A stretch of DNA of 64,000 bases. It comes from Verrucomicrobiales bacterium (GTDB lineage Bacteria > Verrucomicrobiota > Verrucomicrobiia > Verrucomicrobiales > DEV007). Position 1 is the first letter of the stretch; each line of letters starts with the position of its first letter. Below, in pieces: positions 9,132-51,672 of the stretch. The notes beneath the pieces were generated by a model, which had not been told where the DNA came from, ran no database searches, and saw only the letters and a list, made by a program, of their open reading frames with translations. The stretch spans positions 91,525 through 155,524 of the forward strand of contig JARGNI010000008.1 in assembly GCA_029213195.1 (NCBI GenBank). Reading direction: 5' to 3'. Both the position numbers and the translations under genes were made by a program.

Positions 9132-9428
9132 TCAGGAATCCTCGTCCTCGGAATCGACCCCGATCTTGCCTTCGATGATCTCGGTGAGAGCGATATCGGC
9201 GGCTCCCATACGATGATCTGCCTGTATCAGAGGAGAGCGTCCCAGATTCAGTTGCTTGACTCGAGCCGAGACCAAATTGATCAGGACGGGGGGTTCTGGG
9301 ATAATCTTGGATGCCTCTTCGACTAGGTCACTTCTCATAGTAATCGATCCTTTTCCGCTTGCCTGAGACGGTTTTGCCTCACTTCCCGGGCCTGGAAACG
9401 CTACAATTTTATCGGCGTCTTCAGGCAT
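9132..9428 (-). CDS. rpoZ: DNA-directed RNA polymerase omega subunit family protein
   Basis: PPVLINLVSARVKQLNLGRSPLI...ADIALTEIIEGKI resembles an omega-subunit core. Confidence 0.7.
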   Translation of the reverse strand: MPEDADKIVAFPGPGSEAKPSQASGKGSITMRSDLVEEASKIIPEPPVLINLVSARVKQLNLGRSPLIQADHRMGAADIALTEIIEGKIGVDSEDEDS

Positions 9429-9569
9429 GGGTCAATTTTGGGGAGCAATCGTTAGGGATTTGGATGGGGTTGGGGCAGACTCGCCAGAGCGAGTTGCAGA
9501 CAGTGCGGTTAGCACAATTTGAAAAAAAAGCAATGAAATAGTAAAAAACTCAGCCTGAAACGGTGGATT

Positions 9570-10031
9570 CTACTGGCTGTTTTCACCTTTCAGAGAAAGC
9601 GTGATCCTCTTGAGTCTCGCCGAGTCACTTGGGCTCCAGGTCTTGATCGAAGGGTGTTCCTTGAAATGATTGTGGACGAGGCGCCGTTGGTAGGAGTTCA
9701 TCGGCGACAGCTTGAGAGGAGTTCCCGAAGCGATGACACGCTCGGCAGCGCTCACGGCTTCTTCGATCATTTCATAATCCCGGGCCGCGCGATAGCTGTC
9801 GATATCGACCTTGATCTTGGGGGCTTTTTCCAACCGGTCCTGAACGATCCGATTGACGAGATATTGGATCTCCTCGAGCCGATCTCCGTGATGACCGATC
9901 AGCAGTTTGGCATCGCTCGTTGTGGCGACATTCAAGGAGTTGGATTCCCGATCCATATCCACGGTTACGGCAAAGCCGAGATAACCGAGGATGGTGTCGA
10001 GCACTTCGCGTCCGGTTTCCAGTGGGTCCAT
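9570..10031 (-). CDS. KH-R3H RNA-binding protein (Jag/KhpB-like, without Jag-N domain)
   Basis: KH GHHGDRLEEIQYLVNRIV and R3H SPMNSYQRRLVHNHFKEHPSI; next to yidC. Confidence 0.85.
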   Translation of the reverse strand: MDPLETGREVLDTILGYLGFAVTVDMDRESNSLNVATTSDAKLLIGHHGDRLEEIQYLVNRIVQDRLEKAPKIKVDIDSYRAARDYEMIEEAVSAAERVIASGTPLKLSPMNSYQRRLVHNHFKEHPSIKTWSPSDSARLKRITLSLKGENSQ

Positions 10032-10054
10032 CTTTCGTGAATCAAGGTTTGAAA

Positions 10055-11974
10055 TTAACGGCGCTTCTTCTTGCCCTTGGTGTGGCGATCGCCCTTCTCC
10101 CCCGGCATCCGGGTGCGGTCCTTGCTGGAGACGCCGCCGCCACCGCTGCCCTTGGCTTTCTGCGCGGCTTCCGCTTGTTCCTGCATTCTTTGCATGAAGG
10201 ATTTTTTCCCTCCAGCCCGCTTTTTCAGCTCCGGCTCCGGCATTTTATTCATAAGCCAGGTCTGGAGAATGGAGAAGGCGTTCGAAGTCGTCCAGTAGAG
10301 AGAGAGCGCTGCGGCGAAGTTGTAGCAGATCACGAGAAAGATCAGCGGCATCAGCATGAAGATCATCTGCTGGGTCTTGTCTCCGGTTTTTGGAGTGATC
10401 GCGATCTGGATGAAACTGGTCAATCCCATGAGAATGGGAAGCAGATTGAAGGGGATTCCGAGTCCCGGGATCATGAACATGGTATCGGGCATCGCAAGAT
10501 CATCCACCCAGAGGAAGGACTCGTGTCGAAGCTCGACGGCACTCCAGAGCATGCGGTAGAAGGCGAGGAAGACCGGGAGTTGGATGAACATCGGGAGGCA
10601 TCCTCCGAGAGGATTGATGTTGTAGGTTCGATACAACTTCATCGTCTCCTCGTTCATTTTCTGAGGATCGTCCTCGTACTTTTCCCGAAGTTCTTTCATC
10701 ATCGGGGTCAGCTTGGACATGCGCTTCATTGAGCGTGCCGATTTGGCATAGACTGGCCAGATGAGGAGACGAATCAGGATGGTGATGAGAATGATGGCGA
10801 GACCGAAGTTCCCGACGATTCCTTCGAGAAAAACGAGGCCCATGATGAGCCAGGAGGCGAGCGGCTTGATTGCCCATCCGAAGAGCCATCCGAAGATCGG
10901 GATCTCGTCATAGTGCATGACCCGTTCCTTGTTTTCCCCCAGGCCCTTGAGGCGGGAGAATTCCTTGGGGCCCATGTAGAAGTCGTAGGTCAGGGTGCGC
11001 GCGTCACCCGGATTGAGCGAAAACCCCGGGAGGCCCACTCCCGCTTCGGCGGCAAACATCCGCTTTTTCACAGAAGCTGCTTCGTCGTCTTCCACGATCA
11101 CTGGAAACCGGCTCCCCCAAAGCTCCGCTTCGTAGGGCTCCCTGGGAGTGACGATGGTCGCGAAAAACTGGTCATTGACCCCGGCCCAGTTCAGGAGAGG
11201 AAGAGAGAACTTGTCCGAGGGAATCTCGTTTTTCCCGAAGACACCGAGTATCTTTTTCCCACCGTAGTGATCGACTGTTTTGTATTCGAAGTCTCCAGTG
11301 CCCTCGTACCAGAACATACCGATCTGCATCGACCACTCGTTGAGGTGGAGAGGAGCTGCCGATCCGGCGTAGAGATAGCGATTCTCGAGAAGGAGTGGGG
11401 TGCTTGCCCCATTCGCAATCCGAAGATCCATCGTGACGACGTAGGGGTCTGCGGCCGTTTCATCGAGTCGGAAAGTTTTGGTCAGTTCGAACCCTTCCTG
11501 CGTTTTTGTGGTCAGGGTCACCTCTGTGGGTGTGGAGGAGGTGACTTCCCAGTTCGAAGTATCGAATTTCCCCGGGCCGCGACTGATCGCTCCGATCCCG
11601 TGGGAAGCATTCTCGTTGATCGTGATGACGTCAGCTCCTTCGATCTCTCGCTTGTGATCTTTCAGCTTGGCGAGAGAAATACCTGCACCACGAGAGGTGA
11701 TTTCGAGCGAAAGCTTCTCCGTCTCGAGCGTGGCGGTTTTTTCCTCGACAGGTTCGGTCGCGGAAACCGGGTTCCCGGAAGCGTCCGTAGCGGGCTCCGA
11801 AGGCTTTTCAGTCGGTTCCGCGACGGCGGGGTCGGCTGGCTCTACGACAGGGTTTTCGAGCGCTCTTTCTCGAGCCTCTTCGGCTCGCTTTGCCGTTTCC
11901 TTGGCATTCCACCAACCCCAACCAAAGAGGAGGGAGAGACAGACGAGGACGCCGATCCAAGAGGTACGATCCAT
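10055..11974 (-). CDS. yidC: Membrane protein insertase YidC
   Basis: MDRTSWIGVLVCLSLLFGW start, large periplasmic domain, RSMKRMSKLTPMMKELREKYEDDPQKMNEE...NPLGGCLPMFIQLPVFLAFYRML. Confidence 0.97.
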   Translation of the reverse strand: MDRTSWIGVLVCLSLLFGWGWWNAKETAKRAEEARERALENPVVEPADPAVAEPTEKPSEPATDASGNPVSATEPVEEKTATLETEKLSLEITSRGAGISLAKLKDHKREIEGADVITINENASHGIGAISRGPGKFDTSNWEVTSSTPTEVTLTTKTQEGFELTKTFRLDETAADPYVVTMDLRIANGASTPLLLENRYLYAGSAAPLHLNEWSMQIGMFWYEGTGDFEYKTVDHYGGKKILGVFGKNEIPSDKFSLPLLNWAGVNDQFFATIVTPREPYEAELWGSRFPVIVEDDEAASVKKRMFAAEAGVGLPGFSLNPGDARTLTYDFYMGPKEFSRLKGLGENKERVMHYDEIPIFGWLFGWAIKPLASWLIMGLVFLEGIVGNFGLAIILITILIRLLIWPVYAKSARSMKRMSKLTPMMKELREKYEDDPQKMNEETMKLYRTYNINPLGGCLPMFIQLPVFLAFYRMLWSAVELRHESFLWVDDLAMPDTMFMIPGLGIPFNLLPILMGLTSFIQIAITPKTGDKTQQMIFMLMPLIFLVICYNFAAALSLYWTTSNAFSILQTWLMNKMPEPELKKRAGGKKSFMQRMQEQAEAAQKAKGSGGGGVSSKDRTRMPGEKGDRHTKGKKKRR

Positions 11975-14643: not shown

Positions 14644-16395
14644 TTAGGCGGCCTTTTTCTGTGGTTCGGAGGCTTTGGGTTTCTCGGATTCTTTGTCCGG
14701 TTTGGCGGAGTCTTCGTCTTTTTCCTTTTCGTCGCTCTCGCCTTCTTCCTCTGCCTCGGGAAGGAGTTCGTCCAATTGCAGGGTTTCGGGTTCTTCGATG
14801 AAGTGATCGATCCCTACATTGTATTTCGCCTTGATTCGCTCGTGGGCCAGTGCGGCATCCTTGCGATCCAGAACGAGGGGACGTCCCTCTCCGACGAGTC
14901 GGATGACATGGAATTTCTCGTGCCCGTCCTCATGCTCGTCACCATACAGCGCATCGTAGACGTCCTGGAGGAGTCGGATTTTCTTCCCGTTGATCGTATC
15001 GACTACCTTGTGAACGTAACCCCGCAGGTGGGTATTGGTGGAGTCGGGAAGCACCTCTGTGAGGACGACGACCTGGGGGCGCTCCCGGTAGATTTCATCC
15101 TGGCTGAAAAAGGAGTAGTGATAGCGAGTCTCCAGATCGGAGATCGAATGGGCTGCCATCATGTTGCGATCGATGGGTTGAAACTGGAGGCCGGCAAACA
15201 AGACGAAATTGGGTTGCTTGTCGTACTGATTCGACTGGATCAGGTAAGGGATGAATCGTTTCAACTCGACCGTGATCTGCTGCAGTTCGCCGTCGCGCCA
15301 GACTTCGAGGGCCACCGTATCGCCAGCAAATTTTCGCTCGATGATCTCGTTGAGGTCGACCCGCTCGCCCTCGATCTCGATGAAGCCATCCGAGGCAATC
15401 GCATAGCCGTCGATCGAGAGCAGGACATCCTTGGTCTTGAGGATACCGCCGGCCGATCCGGCCGCATCGGCTTCCGCGACCATCACTCCAATCCCGTCAT
15501 TGGGCAGTCCTAGTGCTCGGCGCTGGGCCGGATTCAGAATATTGAGAACGCTGGTCGCCATGTCGACGTAGTGATCGTAGGTGCCGTCCTCGACATCCTT
15601 GAGGAAACGTTCGATCACGGGGACTGGGATCATGTAGCCGGTATTCTGAGCGACGGAGCCGGAGTAGCCCTGGAAAGCGACCCCCACGACCTGGTTGTTC
15701 TGGAGGACAGGGCCTCCCGAATTCCCAGGGTTGATGGCGGCATCGACCTGAATGCTCAGGTGATTATCCACGGCGGAGTGACTGTAGGTGCGAAAGTCGA
15801 TTCGCGAGACAACTCCGCGAGTGACGGAGATTCTCTCCCCTCCAATGGGATAACCGACTGCGACGACGGTCGTGTTCAATTTTGGGATTCCCCCGATGAA
15901 CAGAGGATCGACAGCTGAGAAAGCCGCTGCGAATTCATCGGGAGATTCCAGTTCAAGAAGCGCGAGGTCGCAATCGTGAGCGACGTTGACGACTCGTGCC
16001 TTGTAGGGCTTGGGGTCGCTCATTTTTTTCAAGTAGATCAGGCGCGAGTTGCTGACCACGTGAGCATTCGTGATGAATCGGTTCGGCCCGACGAGAAATC
16101 CTGTTCCATTTCCGCTTCCCATGCCGCCGATATTCCACGGAACTCGAAAGTTGGGCTGCTTGGATTCCACTTCCACGCGCACGATCGCATCGAGATCGAC
16201 CTCGGAAATATCAGTTTGAACCGACTCGGGCGGAGGCATTTCCACTTCGGGAGCCAAAGGCGAAGTCAAGGGGCCGGGTCCAAGAGTGGGTGCACTGGGC
16301 AGGGTATCCTGGGCCTGCATTCGCACCTCCACGAAAACAATGGAAAGAAGCGTCGTCAGCGCGACAGCGGAAAGAGCAAGTCTTGGGGTGTTCAT
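14644..16395 (-). CDS. Secreted S1C (HtrA/DegP-like) serine protease with PDZ
   Basis: TNAHVV, DCDLALLEL and NPGNSGGPVLQ catalytic motifs intact; signal peptide; Lys/Glu-rich C-terminus. Confidence 0.85.
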   Translation of the reverse strand: MNTPRLALSAVALTTLLSIVFVEVRMQAQDTLPSAPTLGPGPLTSPLAPEVEMPPPESVQTDISEVDLDAIVRVEVESKQPNFRVPWNIGGMGSGNGTGFLVGPNRFITNAHVVSNSRLIYLKKMSDPKPYKARVVNVAHDCDLALLELESPDEFAAAFSAVDPLFIGGIPKLNTTVVAVGYPIGGERISVTRGVVSRIDFRTYSHSAVDNHLSIQVDAAINPGNSGGPVLQNNQVVGVAFQGYSGSVAQNTGYMIPVPVIERFLKDVEDGTYDHYVDMATSVLNILNPAQRRALGLPNDGIGVMVAEADAAGSAGGILKTKDVLLSIDGYAIASDGFIEIEGERVDLNEIIERKFAGDTVALEVWRDGELQQITVELKRFIPYLIQSNQYDKQPNFVLFAGLQFQPIDRNMMAAHSISDLETRYHYSFFSQDEIYRERPQVVVLTEVLPDSTNTHLRGYVHKVVDTINGKKIRLLQDVYDALYGDEHEDGHEKFHVIRLVGEGRPLVLDRKDAALAHERIKAKYNVGIDHFIEEPETLQLDELLPEAEEEGESDEKEKDEDSAKPDKESEKPKASEPQKKAA

Positions 16396-16680
16396 AGAGA
16401 AAGTGTCCGCAGCATCGAATTTTTTTTTGGCAGAAAATCGACGGCTGCGGGCGGAAGTGTAAAGTTCGGGGTCAGAAAGTCAATCTTCCCCCACACACGA
16501 AAGGGGAGCAGGATTAGGGATAGGAAAGCGCATGTCGGTTGCGGAGGAGGGGACGACAAAGGGGCTCGGATCATTCGTTGATGACAAGAGCGACCTGGAA
16601 ACGAGACGGCTCTTGTCTCCTGGAAAGCGGTATTCAATTTTTGTTTTGTCTGAAAAGAAGAAGCTCTCTAGCCTCTGGGT

Positions 16681-17463
16681 ATGAAAAACTATTTGGCCTA
16701 CACAGGAGCTTTCCTTTGCCTGGTTCTCGGAGCCTGGAATTCTGCTCACTCTCAGGACAAGGGCATCGAGGAGTTCGAGAAGAAGGTGGAAGAAAGGATG
16801 GCGAAGAGAATCGTCGAAGAGGCGAAAGCCGAAGCGGACGGGCGCCCGCTCACTCCGGGGATCCTGATTGTTTGTGAATTCATTGAGGTGGAAATGAAGG
16901 ATTTCAGCGATTGGGTGTTGGAGAATCCGATCAAGACCGATGCCTCTCCGTTGAGAAAAGCGGTCCAATCCTGGATCCAGTCGGAGGGAGCCGCTCTTGT
17001 CGAGACTCTTGTAGTTTCTGCGAAGAGTGGCCAACGGGCCAAAGTCGAGGCGGTAGAAGAGTTTATCTACTCAACGGAGTATGACCCACCCAACACGGCT
17101 TCTGTGAAGCCGGAAGGAGAGAGCGTGGAGTTAATCCCTCCCAATGGAACGGCCTTCGAAACGCGAAACGTGGGGGCGACGCTGGAAGTGGATCCGGTCC
17201 TCGGAGAGGATGGAACGATTGACCTGAATCTCGCGCCGGAAATCGTGATCGCGGATGATCCGGTCGATTGGGTGACGAAGCTTGGCGATGTCGAGATGAC
17301 CGTTCCCTTGCCGCGGTTCCACACGACCAAGGCGACGACTCAGATTTCCGTCCACCCTGGAGACTATGCACTGATCGGTACCAGCCGTCTCGGAATCAGC
17401 AAGATGCCCGAGGCAAAAGACCCCATCATTCTCATTTTTGTTCGTTGCGACGTTTCCGGGTAG
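16681..17463 (+). CDS. Secreted protein with a secretin-domain-like region
   Basis: Signal peptide MKNYLAYTGAFLCLVLGAWNSAHSQ; VGATLEVDPVLGEDGTIDLNLAPEIV...TTQISVHPGDYALIG resembles a secretin core. Confidence 0.5.
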   Translation: MKNYLAYTGAFLCLVLGAWNSAHSQDKGIEEFEKKVEERMAKRIVEEAKAEADGRPLTPGILIVCEFIEVEMKDFSDWVLENPIKTDASPLRKAVQSWIQSEGAALVETLVVSAKSGQRAKVEAVEEFIYSTEYDPPNTASVKPEGESVELIPPNGTAFETRNVGATLEVDPVLGEDGTIDLNLAPEIVIADDPVDWVTKLGDVEMTVPLPRFHTTKATTQISVHPGDYALIGTSRLGISKMPEAKDPIILIFVRCDVSG

Positions 17464-50710: not shown

Positions 50711-50880
50711 AGCAAAGCCATCCTCGCGAAATCGTCACAAAACGCCAGTGAAATATGAGAACGGGGGAAGGGTTTCTCTCCGCGAGGCCCTGGAAGGGCA
50801 ATCTCGGAGCGGCCGGTCACCAAGCGGATGAGGATCTCTCCGCAGGAGGGACACCGTCGGGCTTGCTGCTTGAAAAAAGA

Positions 50881-50924
50881 GAAAGGGTTGGAGAAGGCCA
50901 CCTACGCCAACATCCAACCCTTTC
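50881..50924 (-). terminator. Strong terminator hairpin at the end of the extended SHD1-like gene
   Basis: 12-bp perfect inverted repeat GAAAGGGTTGGA/TCCAACCCTTTC, 20-nt loop, minus-strand tail TCTCTTTTTTC; 25 nt past the distal stop. Confidence 0.75.
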
Positions 50925-50949: not shown

Positions 50950-51672
50950 TCAGTTCGAGCCGGAAGAGGCAATTTTGCCATCGTCCCAAGTCGCCCGCTT
51001 CACTACCGGGTCTGAAGATTTATGTTCGGCGATCATTCGATCTCCTTTGTATACACGCAGCCAGATTCCTTTCAGTCTGCTTCCGTCTTTGTTGGTTGCG
51101 ACCGCAACCGTAGAGCCTCGTCAACTATTCGAGACGTTCTTCGTCTCGCTTCGTTCCAGGCTCAGCCCGGTAGTTTCAAACTCCTCTGTGACATTGGCAG
51201 GGATCAACTCGACTCCGTGGCTTCCTTCCTTGAAGGAGCCGCAGTCCATGTAGATGCGATATTTGACCATCGCATTGTCCAGATCGTTTCTGCCCCAGTT
51301 CTCGATGGCGACGTCGTAGAGATATGAGCGGATGTTCGTCTTCGTGTTTCCTTTCGTGACGTTTTCGGAGCCGGTCGTTTTCTTCTTGGCATCGATCCGA
51401 AGGCGGAAGGTCTCGTTCTCTTCTCCCCACTTCAGGACGTAGGCCTGGTCTTCTTCGGAGAGCATTGCGATGGGAAAGCGAACCTGACGTTGCGTCGAGT
51501 CCAGCTTTACCGTGACTTCCACATTGGTTGCCGAGACGATTTCCGCCTCCATCGTTTTCCCGTCAGCGCTGGTGAAGGTGCGACTCTCGGCAGTTGCTAC
51601 GAAGGGTAGCAATCCCAAGGTCACGACCGCGACCGCTAAGGCGGGAAGGTGGGTTCGTGAGGTCGTATTCAT
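50950..51672 (-). CDS. Secreted SHD1-like protein interrupted by one in-frame TGA (51121-51123); extended reading frame shown
   Basis: Signal peptide MNTTSRTHLPALAVAVVTLGLLPFVATAES, SHD1-like RTFTSADGKTMEAEIVSA...FPIAMLSEEDQAYV; after TGA same frame reads RGSTVAVATNKDGSRLKGIWLRVYKGDRMIAEHKSSDPVVKRATWDDGKIASSGSN*. Confidence 0.6.
51094..51123 (-). other. Candidate bacterial SECIS-like element (UGA + 11 nt + GGUUGC-GGUC-GCAACC hairpin)
   Basis: Perfect 6-bp stem with GGUC loop; spacing and loop resemble E. coli fdhF SECIS. Confidence 0.35.

Follow-up and report, generated by a model that had tools for sequence, protein, structure and literature searches.

The gene under study lies on the minus strand of a 64,000-nucleotide stretch of DNA (the window), with genes resembling the sulfite reductase genes cysJ and cysI (Pfam matches) upstream and prs, recognized from its translation, downstream. 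Its open reading frame starts with ATG at 51672 (minus strand), and homologous coding sequence is found on both sides of an in-frame UGA. The features of this locus are as follows.

50950..51672, minus strand: candidate selenoprotein gene of 240 amino acids, with one internal UGA (selenocysteine [Sec] 184) and a second TGA as its end (open reading frame and translation; whole-length homology to a Verrucomicrobiales family).
51589..51672, minus strand: probable N-terminal export signal (MNTTSRTHLPALAVAVVTLGLLPFVATA), read from the sequence without a signal-peptide predictor; family members have a hydrophobic leader.
51415..51585, minus strand: N-terminal SHD1-like domain, residues about 30 to 86 (AlphaFold; the SHD1 match is weak and in relatives).
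50995..51405, minus strand: C-terminal β-sandwich domain, residues about 90 to 226, split by the Sec loop (AlphaFold; weak Foldseek matches to ApaG-like and arrestin-like structures).
51121..51123, minus strand: in-frame UGA, codon 184, predicted to encode Sec, in the loop joining the last two long strands (homologs carry UGA or Cys in this loop).
51094..51109, minus strand: predicted bacterial Sec insertion (bSECIS) hairpin GGUUGC-GGUC-GCAACC, 11 nt after the UGA, with its loop after 17 nt (fold; GGUC loop common to other members).
50953..51120, minus strand: 56 codons 3′ of the UGA (LKGIWLRVYKGDRMIAEHKS...), homologous to the C terminus of the family and closing the sandwich domain in the model (translation, homology, and AlphaFold).
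50870..50924, minus strand: hairpin with a U-run, resembling a Rho-independent terminator, beyond the second TGA (folding energy, −27 kcal/mol; z = −5.06).

The original prediction held that the frame continues past the TGA at 51123-51121 for 56 open codons before reaching another TGA, at 50952-50950, that a strong terminator follows 25 nt later, and that a hairpin with a perfect 6-bp stem (GGTTGC-GGTC-GCAACC, 51109-51094) begins 11 nt past the first TGA. All three points were borne out: the translation confirms the open frame, the terminator folds at −27 kcal/mol (z = −5.1) with a U-run next to it, and the hairpin lies at exactly the distance given and folds as described. The translation reveals no frameshift or other damage 3′ of the TGA, and codon usage in this region supports the frame weakly.

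Three of the four sel genes that the original prediction proposed to look for are encoded in the same genome: selA, selB, and selD all score above the cutoffs of the NCBIfam equivalog models, while the fourth, selC, is absent from the draft. By gene content, this organism decodes UGA as selenocysteine. The three genes lie on one contig (C21, locus L050), with selD at 9143-10246, selA at 10322-11770, and selB at 15481-17424; codon 31 of selD is itself an in-frame TGA, and a hairpin with GUU as its loop comes after it. Genes judged by eye to resemble a PhnD/C/E-type ABC transporter lie between selA and selB, giving a single cluster, selD(TGA31)-selA-putative PhnD/C/E-like ABC transporter-selB (L050:9143-17424); the cargo of this transporter may be a selenium compound. 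Searches of the draft assembly for tRNA-Sec (selC) with the Rfam model, a pattern, and a sister sequence returned ordinary tRNAs only. A tRNA-Sec above the Rfam cutoff is present in 40 of the 76 genomes of the same GTDB family, sometimes near selA, and the selC of sister genomes takes the form GGAGAGAG...CTTCAAAAC.... We infer, as the simplest reason for its absence, a gap in this 95%-complete draft. Elsewhere in the genome, an array of five tRNAs (L110:1154-1728, contig C75) includes a Y-RNA-like (YrlA) match in between, below the gathering score.

Searching with the protein from the window led to a paralog in its own genome (contig C89; L032/L051) and to further homologs, with a TGA in the same loop. 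With this paralog as the query, homologs were found in 25 of the 76 genomes of the GTDB family; the strongest 24 all have a TGA, most of them within CxGG[ST]U or close variants, and the weakest (L075) has two TGAs when read to its end. Homologs were then gathered across the order by profile search of the Verrucomicrobiales, and those of 63 genomes have a TGA in the same interstrand loop. The loop itself is fast evolving and hypervariable: Sec forms include GGGUGGAPC, GGGUCGP, GSTUCRGG, GCUG, and GGUUG, in many relatives a Cys lies close to the Sec (CxGG[ST]U, CU, or UC), and several genes have two spaced Sec codons. Other homologs carry Cys in this loop (e.g., GGGCRGGSC and CETSSSCPTC). Family members begin with a hydrophobic leader, and the named matches are uncultured Verrucomicrobiales, nearly all of them metagenome-assembled genomes (MAGs). 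One candidate was rejected: in genus g10, which has no selA, the in-frame TGA proved to be an ordinary terminal stop. In another paralog from the genome under study (L035, contig C64:52353-53054), a TAG interrupts the frame near its start; this is probably a pseudogene or an error.

The TGA form of the family tracks selA. This gene is present in 62 of the 63 genomes with TGA forms, compared with 60 of 325 others (P = 3 × 10−36), and the sole exception is a MAG that is 54% complete. Only 1 of 10 genomes with Cys forms has selA (P = 1 × 10−9 versus TGA forms). These P values overstate independence because the genomes are related; the pattern spans five families of the order (f1, f2, f3, f5, and f6). 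In relatives, the protein sequence 3′ of the TGA is conserved, and dN/dS in this region is 0.04 to 0.33 (13 of 14 pairs with a value), showing that it is under purifying selection. No conserved gene neighborhood was found for the family except in one genus (g8), both genomes of which (G058 and G059; loci L056 and L057) have selB upstream of the TGA gene in the same orientation, with intervals of about 115 nt and about 1 kb. There was no plasmid match.

We compared the hairpin with that of Escherichia coli fdhF, which the original prediction had described as a UGA followed by an 11-nt spacer and a similar stem. This description was accurate: of 5,426 E. coli genomes, 5,389 contain TGA, 11 nt, and GGTTGCAGGTCTGCACC in this order, and among the records listed the annotation is fdhF. 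The gene in the window matches fdhF in its UGA, its 11-nt spacer, a stem that starts with GGUU, and GGUC in the loop. The fdhF hairpin has a bulged U, whereas the hairpin described here is simple, with a 4-nt loop closed by C-G and no bulge, and many relatives differ further from fdhF in having AGUU or GUU loops. The published bSECIS rule, a G in the first two positions of a small apical loop located 16 to 37 nt from the UGA (PMC13188914), is met as predicted, with a GGUC loop after 17 nt on a 6-bp stem.

At −9.3 kcal/mol, the hairpin does not stand out by energy, and the 60-nt stretch that contains it is ordinary in this respect (z = 0.71); the signal is in the loop and its place. When we required a GGUC or AGUU loop closed by a Watson-Crick stem of 6 bp, 12 to 33 nt downstream, the TGA under study was the only one of 4,874 TGA trinucleotides, in 161 kb of DNA from its own genome, to be followed by such a family-type hairpin. 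Across the family, a bSECIS-like hairpin (stem score of at least 5, GU-containing loop, 12 to 33 nt downstream of the last TGA per gene) follows 62 of 66 TGA genes, compared with 42 of the 1945 TGA trinucleotides of the window, which served as controls (2%). The loops follow RGUY (AGUU, GGUC, GUU, and close variants), and 18 relatives share the GGUC loop. The type of hairpin is also maintained by compensatory change: among 25 family hairpins, with that of the window excluded, both sides of a pair had changed without loss of pairing in 56 cases, compared with 21.2 in shuffled and at most 13 in slid controls. The inner stem pairs are biased because hairpins were selected for at least four pairs; the fifth pair is complete in 26 of 26 distinct family stems. 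A covariance model of the family hairpins was set aside as a detector, being too short to discriminate; neither the hairpin in the window (9.4 bits, not significant in 64 kb) nor the SelD hairpin (7.9 bits) stands out.

AlphaFold predicts a small N-terminal β domain (four strands and a helix), with a pLDDT over 90 in most blocks, and a C-terminal β-sandwich. The Sec loop is a low-confidence stretch of this model, with the last two long strands on either side, and is presumably flexible. Foldseek gave only weak matches to other sandwiches (ApaG, arrestin-like, and Amuc_1102; TM score of at most about 0.3 by query). The description of the N-terminal region as SHD1-like (SLA1 homology domain 1, PF03983) has only slender support: it is matched weakly in 5 of 20 relatives (at best E = 0.0017, Pfam), and SLA1 SHD1 is the only PDB profile match (E = 0.095), whereas the protein from the window has no Pfam match and does not reach the Pfam cutoff for SHD1.

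The gene in the window is a divergent member of this family. It has neither a neighboring Cys nor a Gly-rich motif, is distant from the CxGG[ST]U group, and encodes one Cys further upstream of its UGA, in YMDCGSF; the position of the UGA in the loop was aligned by the flanking strands and not via a shared motif. On the question of which residue occupies this site in homologs, the evidence is divided: diverse homologs have UGA or Cys in the same loop, but the nearest relatives by sequence (34 to 37% identity) have neither and carry ordinary residues. In a tree built without the loop columns, the gene falls among Sec-less paralogs (SH-aLRT, 85 to 90), although joining it to the Sec clade is not rejected (AU test, P = 0.26). 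No ortholog above about 37% identity was found among the genomes searched, and the gene is species specific. One scenario is that this loop gained Sec on two or more independent occasions, one of them in the common ancestor of the main Sec/Cys clade and another, with no Cys stage in between, in the line leading to the gene in the window; we offer this tentatively and would put it at somewhat below even odds.

If an ordinary paralog without Sec had recently acquired a nonsense mutation, leaving a truncated or dead product and a chance hairpin, this would also account for relatives that lack Sec or Cys in the loop, for a species-specific gene without an ortholog, and for a tree position outside the Sec clade, itself not significant. 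However, a chance stop would then have to fall in the one loop where relatives have Sec, upstream of a chance hairpin that is the single family-type 6-bp case among 4,874 TGAs, in a genome that uses UGA for Sec and in a gene with no frameshift or other downstream damage. We regard this explanation as unlikely. Programmed readthrough, in which a near-cognate tRNA (for Trp or another amino acid) would decode the UGA to yield mainly the short protein plus a small amount of a longer, selenium-free form, fits the frame that stays open up to a second stop with a terminator beyond, but it leaves the selA link, the exchange of UGA and Cys, and the SelB-type hairpin unexplained, and we consider it very improbable. 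A one-base sequencing or assembly error is conceivable in a 115-contig draft genome without a read-level view, yet such an error in the codon would not create the hairpin, and the same codon type, place, and hairpin recur in tens of independent genomes, so that we give it equally little weight.

The reading that we prefer is that the UGA is decoded as Sec and that the product is an exported selenoprotein, to which we assign a probability of about 0.88 in the absence of selenium or protein data. Support for it comes from selA, selB, and selD, the exchange of UGA and Cys, the tracking of selA, and the conservation of the hairpin; the combination that would have refuted it (no sel genes, an ordinary residue at the site, and a hairpin that is not kept) does not hold at the level of the family. 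That the family consists of selenoproteins is close to certain; we are less sure of the gene in the window because it is divergent, with Sec-less neighbors in the tree, no partner Cys, and no close ortholog. In the proposed mechanism, a ribosome would reach the UGA at codon 184, and SelB with GTP and Sec-tRNA(Sec) would bind the hairpin 12 to 27 nt downstream through its GGUC loop. Sec would be delivered at codon 184, yielding a 240-residue protein with Sec placed in a flexible loop flanked by the last two long strands of the β-sandwich. Sec insertion itself, export, and Sec redox chemistry are inferred.

The leader sequence suggests that the protein is exported; its likeliest function, although unproven, is thiol/selenol redox chemistry carried out by a flexible loop of the exported protein. 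Because Sec occurs with a nearby Cys in an exposed loop, as in proteins that form a selenenylsulfide, we infer that family members may act in the cell envelope, either as a redox switch based on a selenenylsulfide or in peroxide/thiol chemistry. The CU, CxxU, and UxxC selenoprotein families (PMC13188914, Table 1) likewise often have Sec near or adjacent to Cys and have Cys homologs in genomes without Sec machinery, but unlike these redox families, the family described here lacks a thioredoxin-like fold.

The family is not among the 119 selenoprotein families in Table 1 of a 2026 review (PMC13188914), which includes those of Haft and Tolstoy (2025), its members have no convincing NCBIfam or Pfam match, and full-text literature searches found no description of such a family. 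As far as these tools can see, the decoding is standard and the protein family is new. The reason that it has been overlooked so far is probably that automatic annotation ends such genes at the UGA and that the Sec loop varies too much for searches based on Cys homologs. These results add a widespread selenoprotein family, present in 63 of the Verrucomicrobiales genomes searched, that has no recognized domain and in which Sec occupies a hypervariable loop of an exported β-sandwich and not a thioredoxin-like active site. With its two-Sec, UU, CU, and UC forms, the family lends itself naturally to testing how Sec sites shift, how they increase in number, and how they return to Cys once selA is lost.

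Several individual genes have unusual loops. Mammalian thioredoxin reductase ends in a C-terminal GCUG tail, and two genes of family f6 (L214 and L228) carry Gly-Cys-Sec-Gly, likewise in a flexible stretch; the likeness is an analogy only, as the proteins are unrelated and the motif lies in an internal loop of an exported β-sandwich. Five genes (L176, L179, L181, L190, and L202) have two Sec codons 6 to 10 residues apart, with a strong hairpin mostly after the second only. In L229 (G322:C107), two consecutive TGA codons (GGUUG) are followed by a single GGUC hairpin, making this gene a candidate for tandem Sec insertion.
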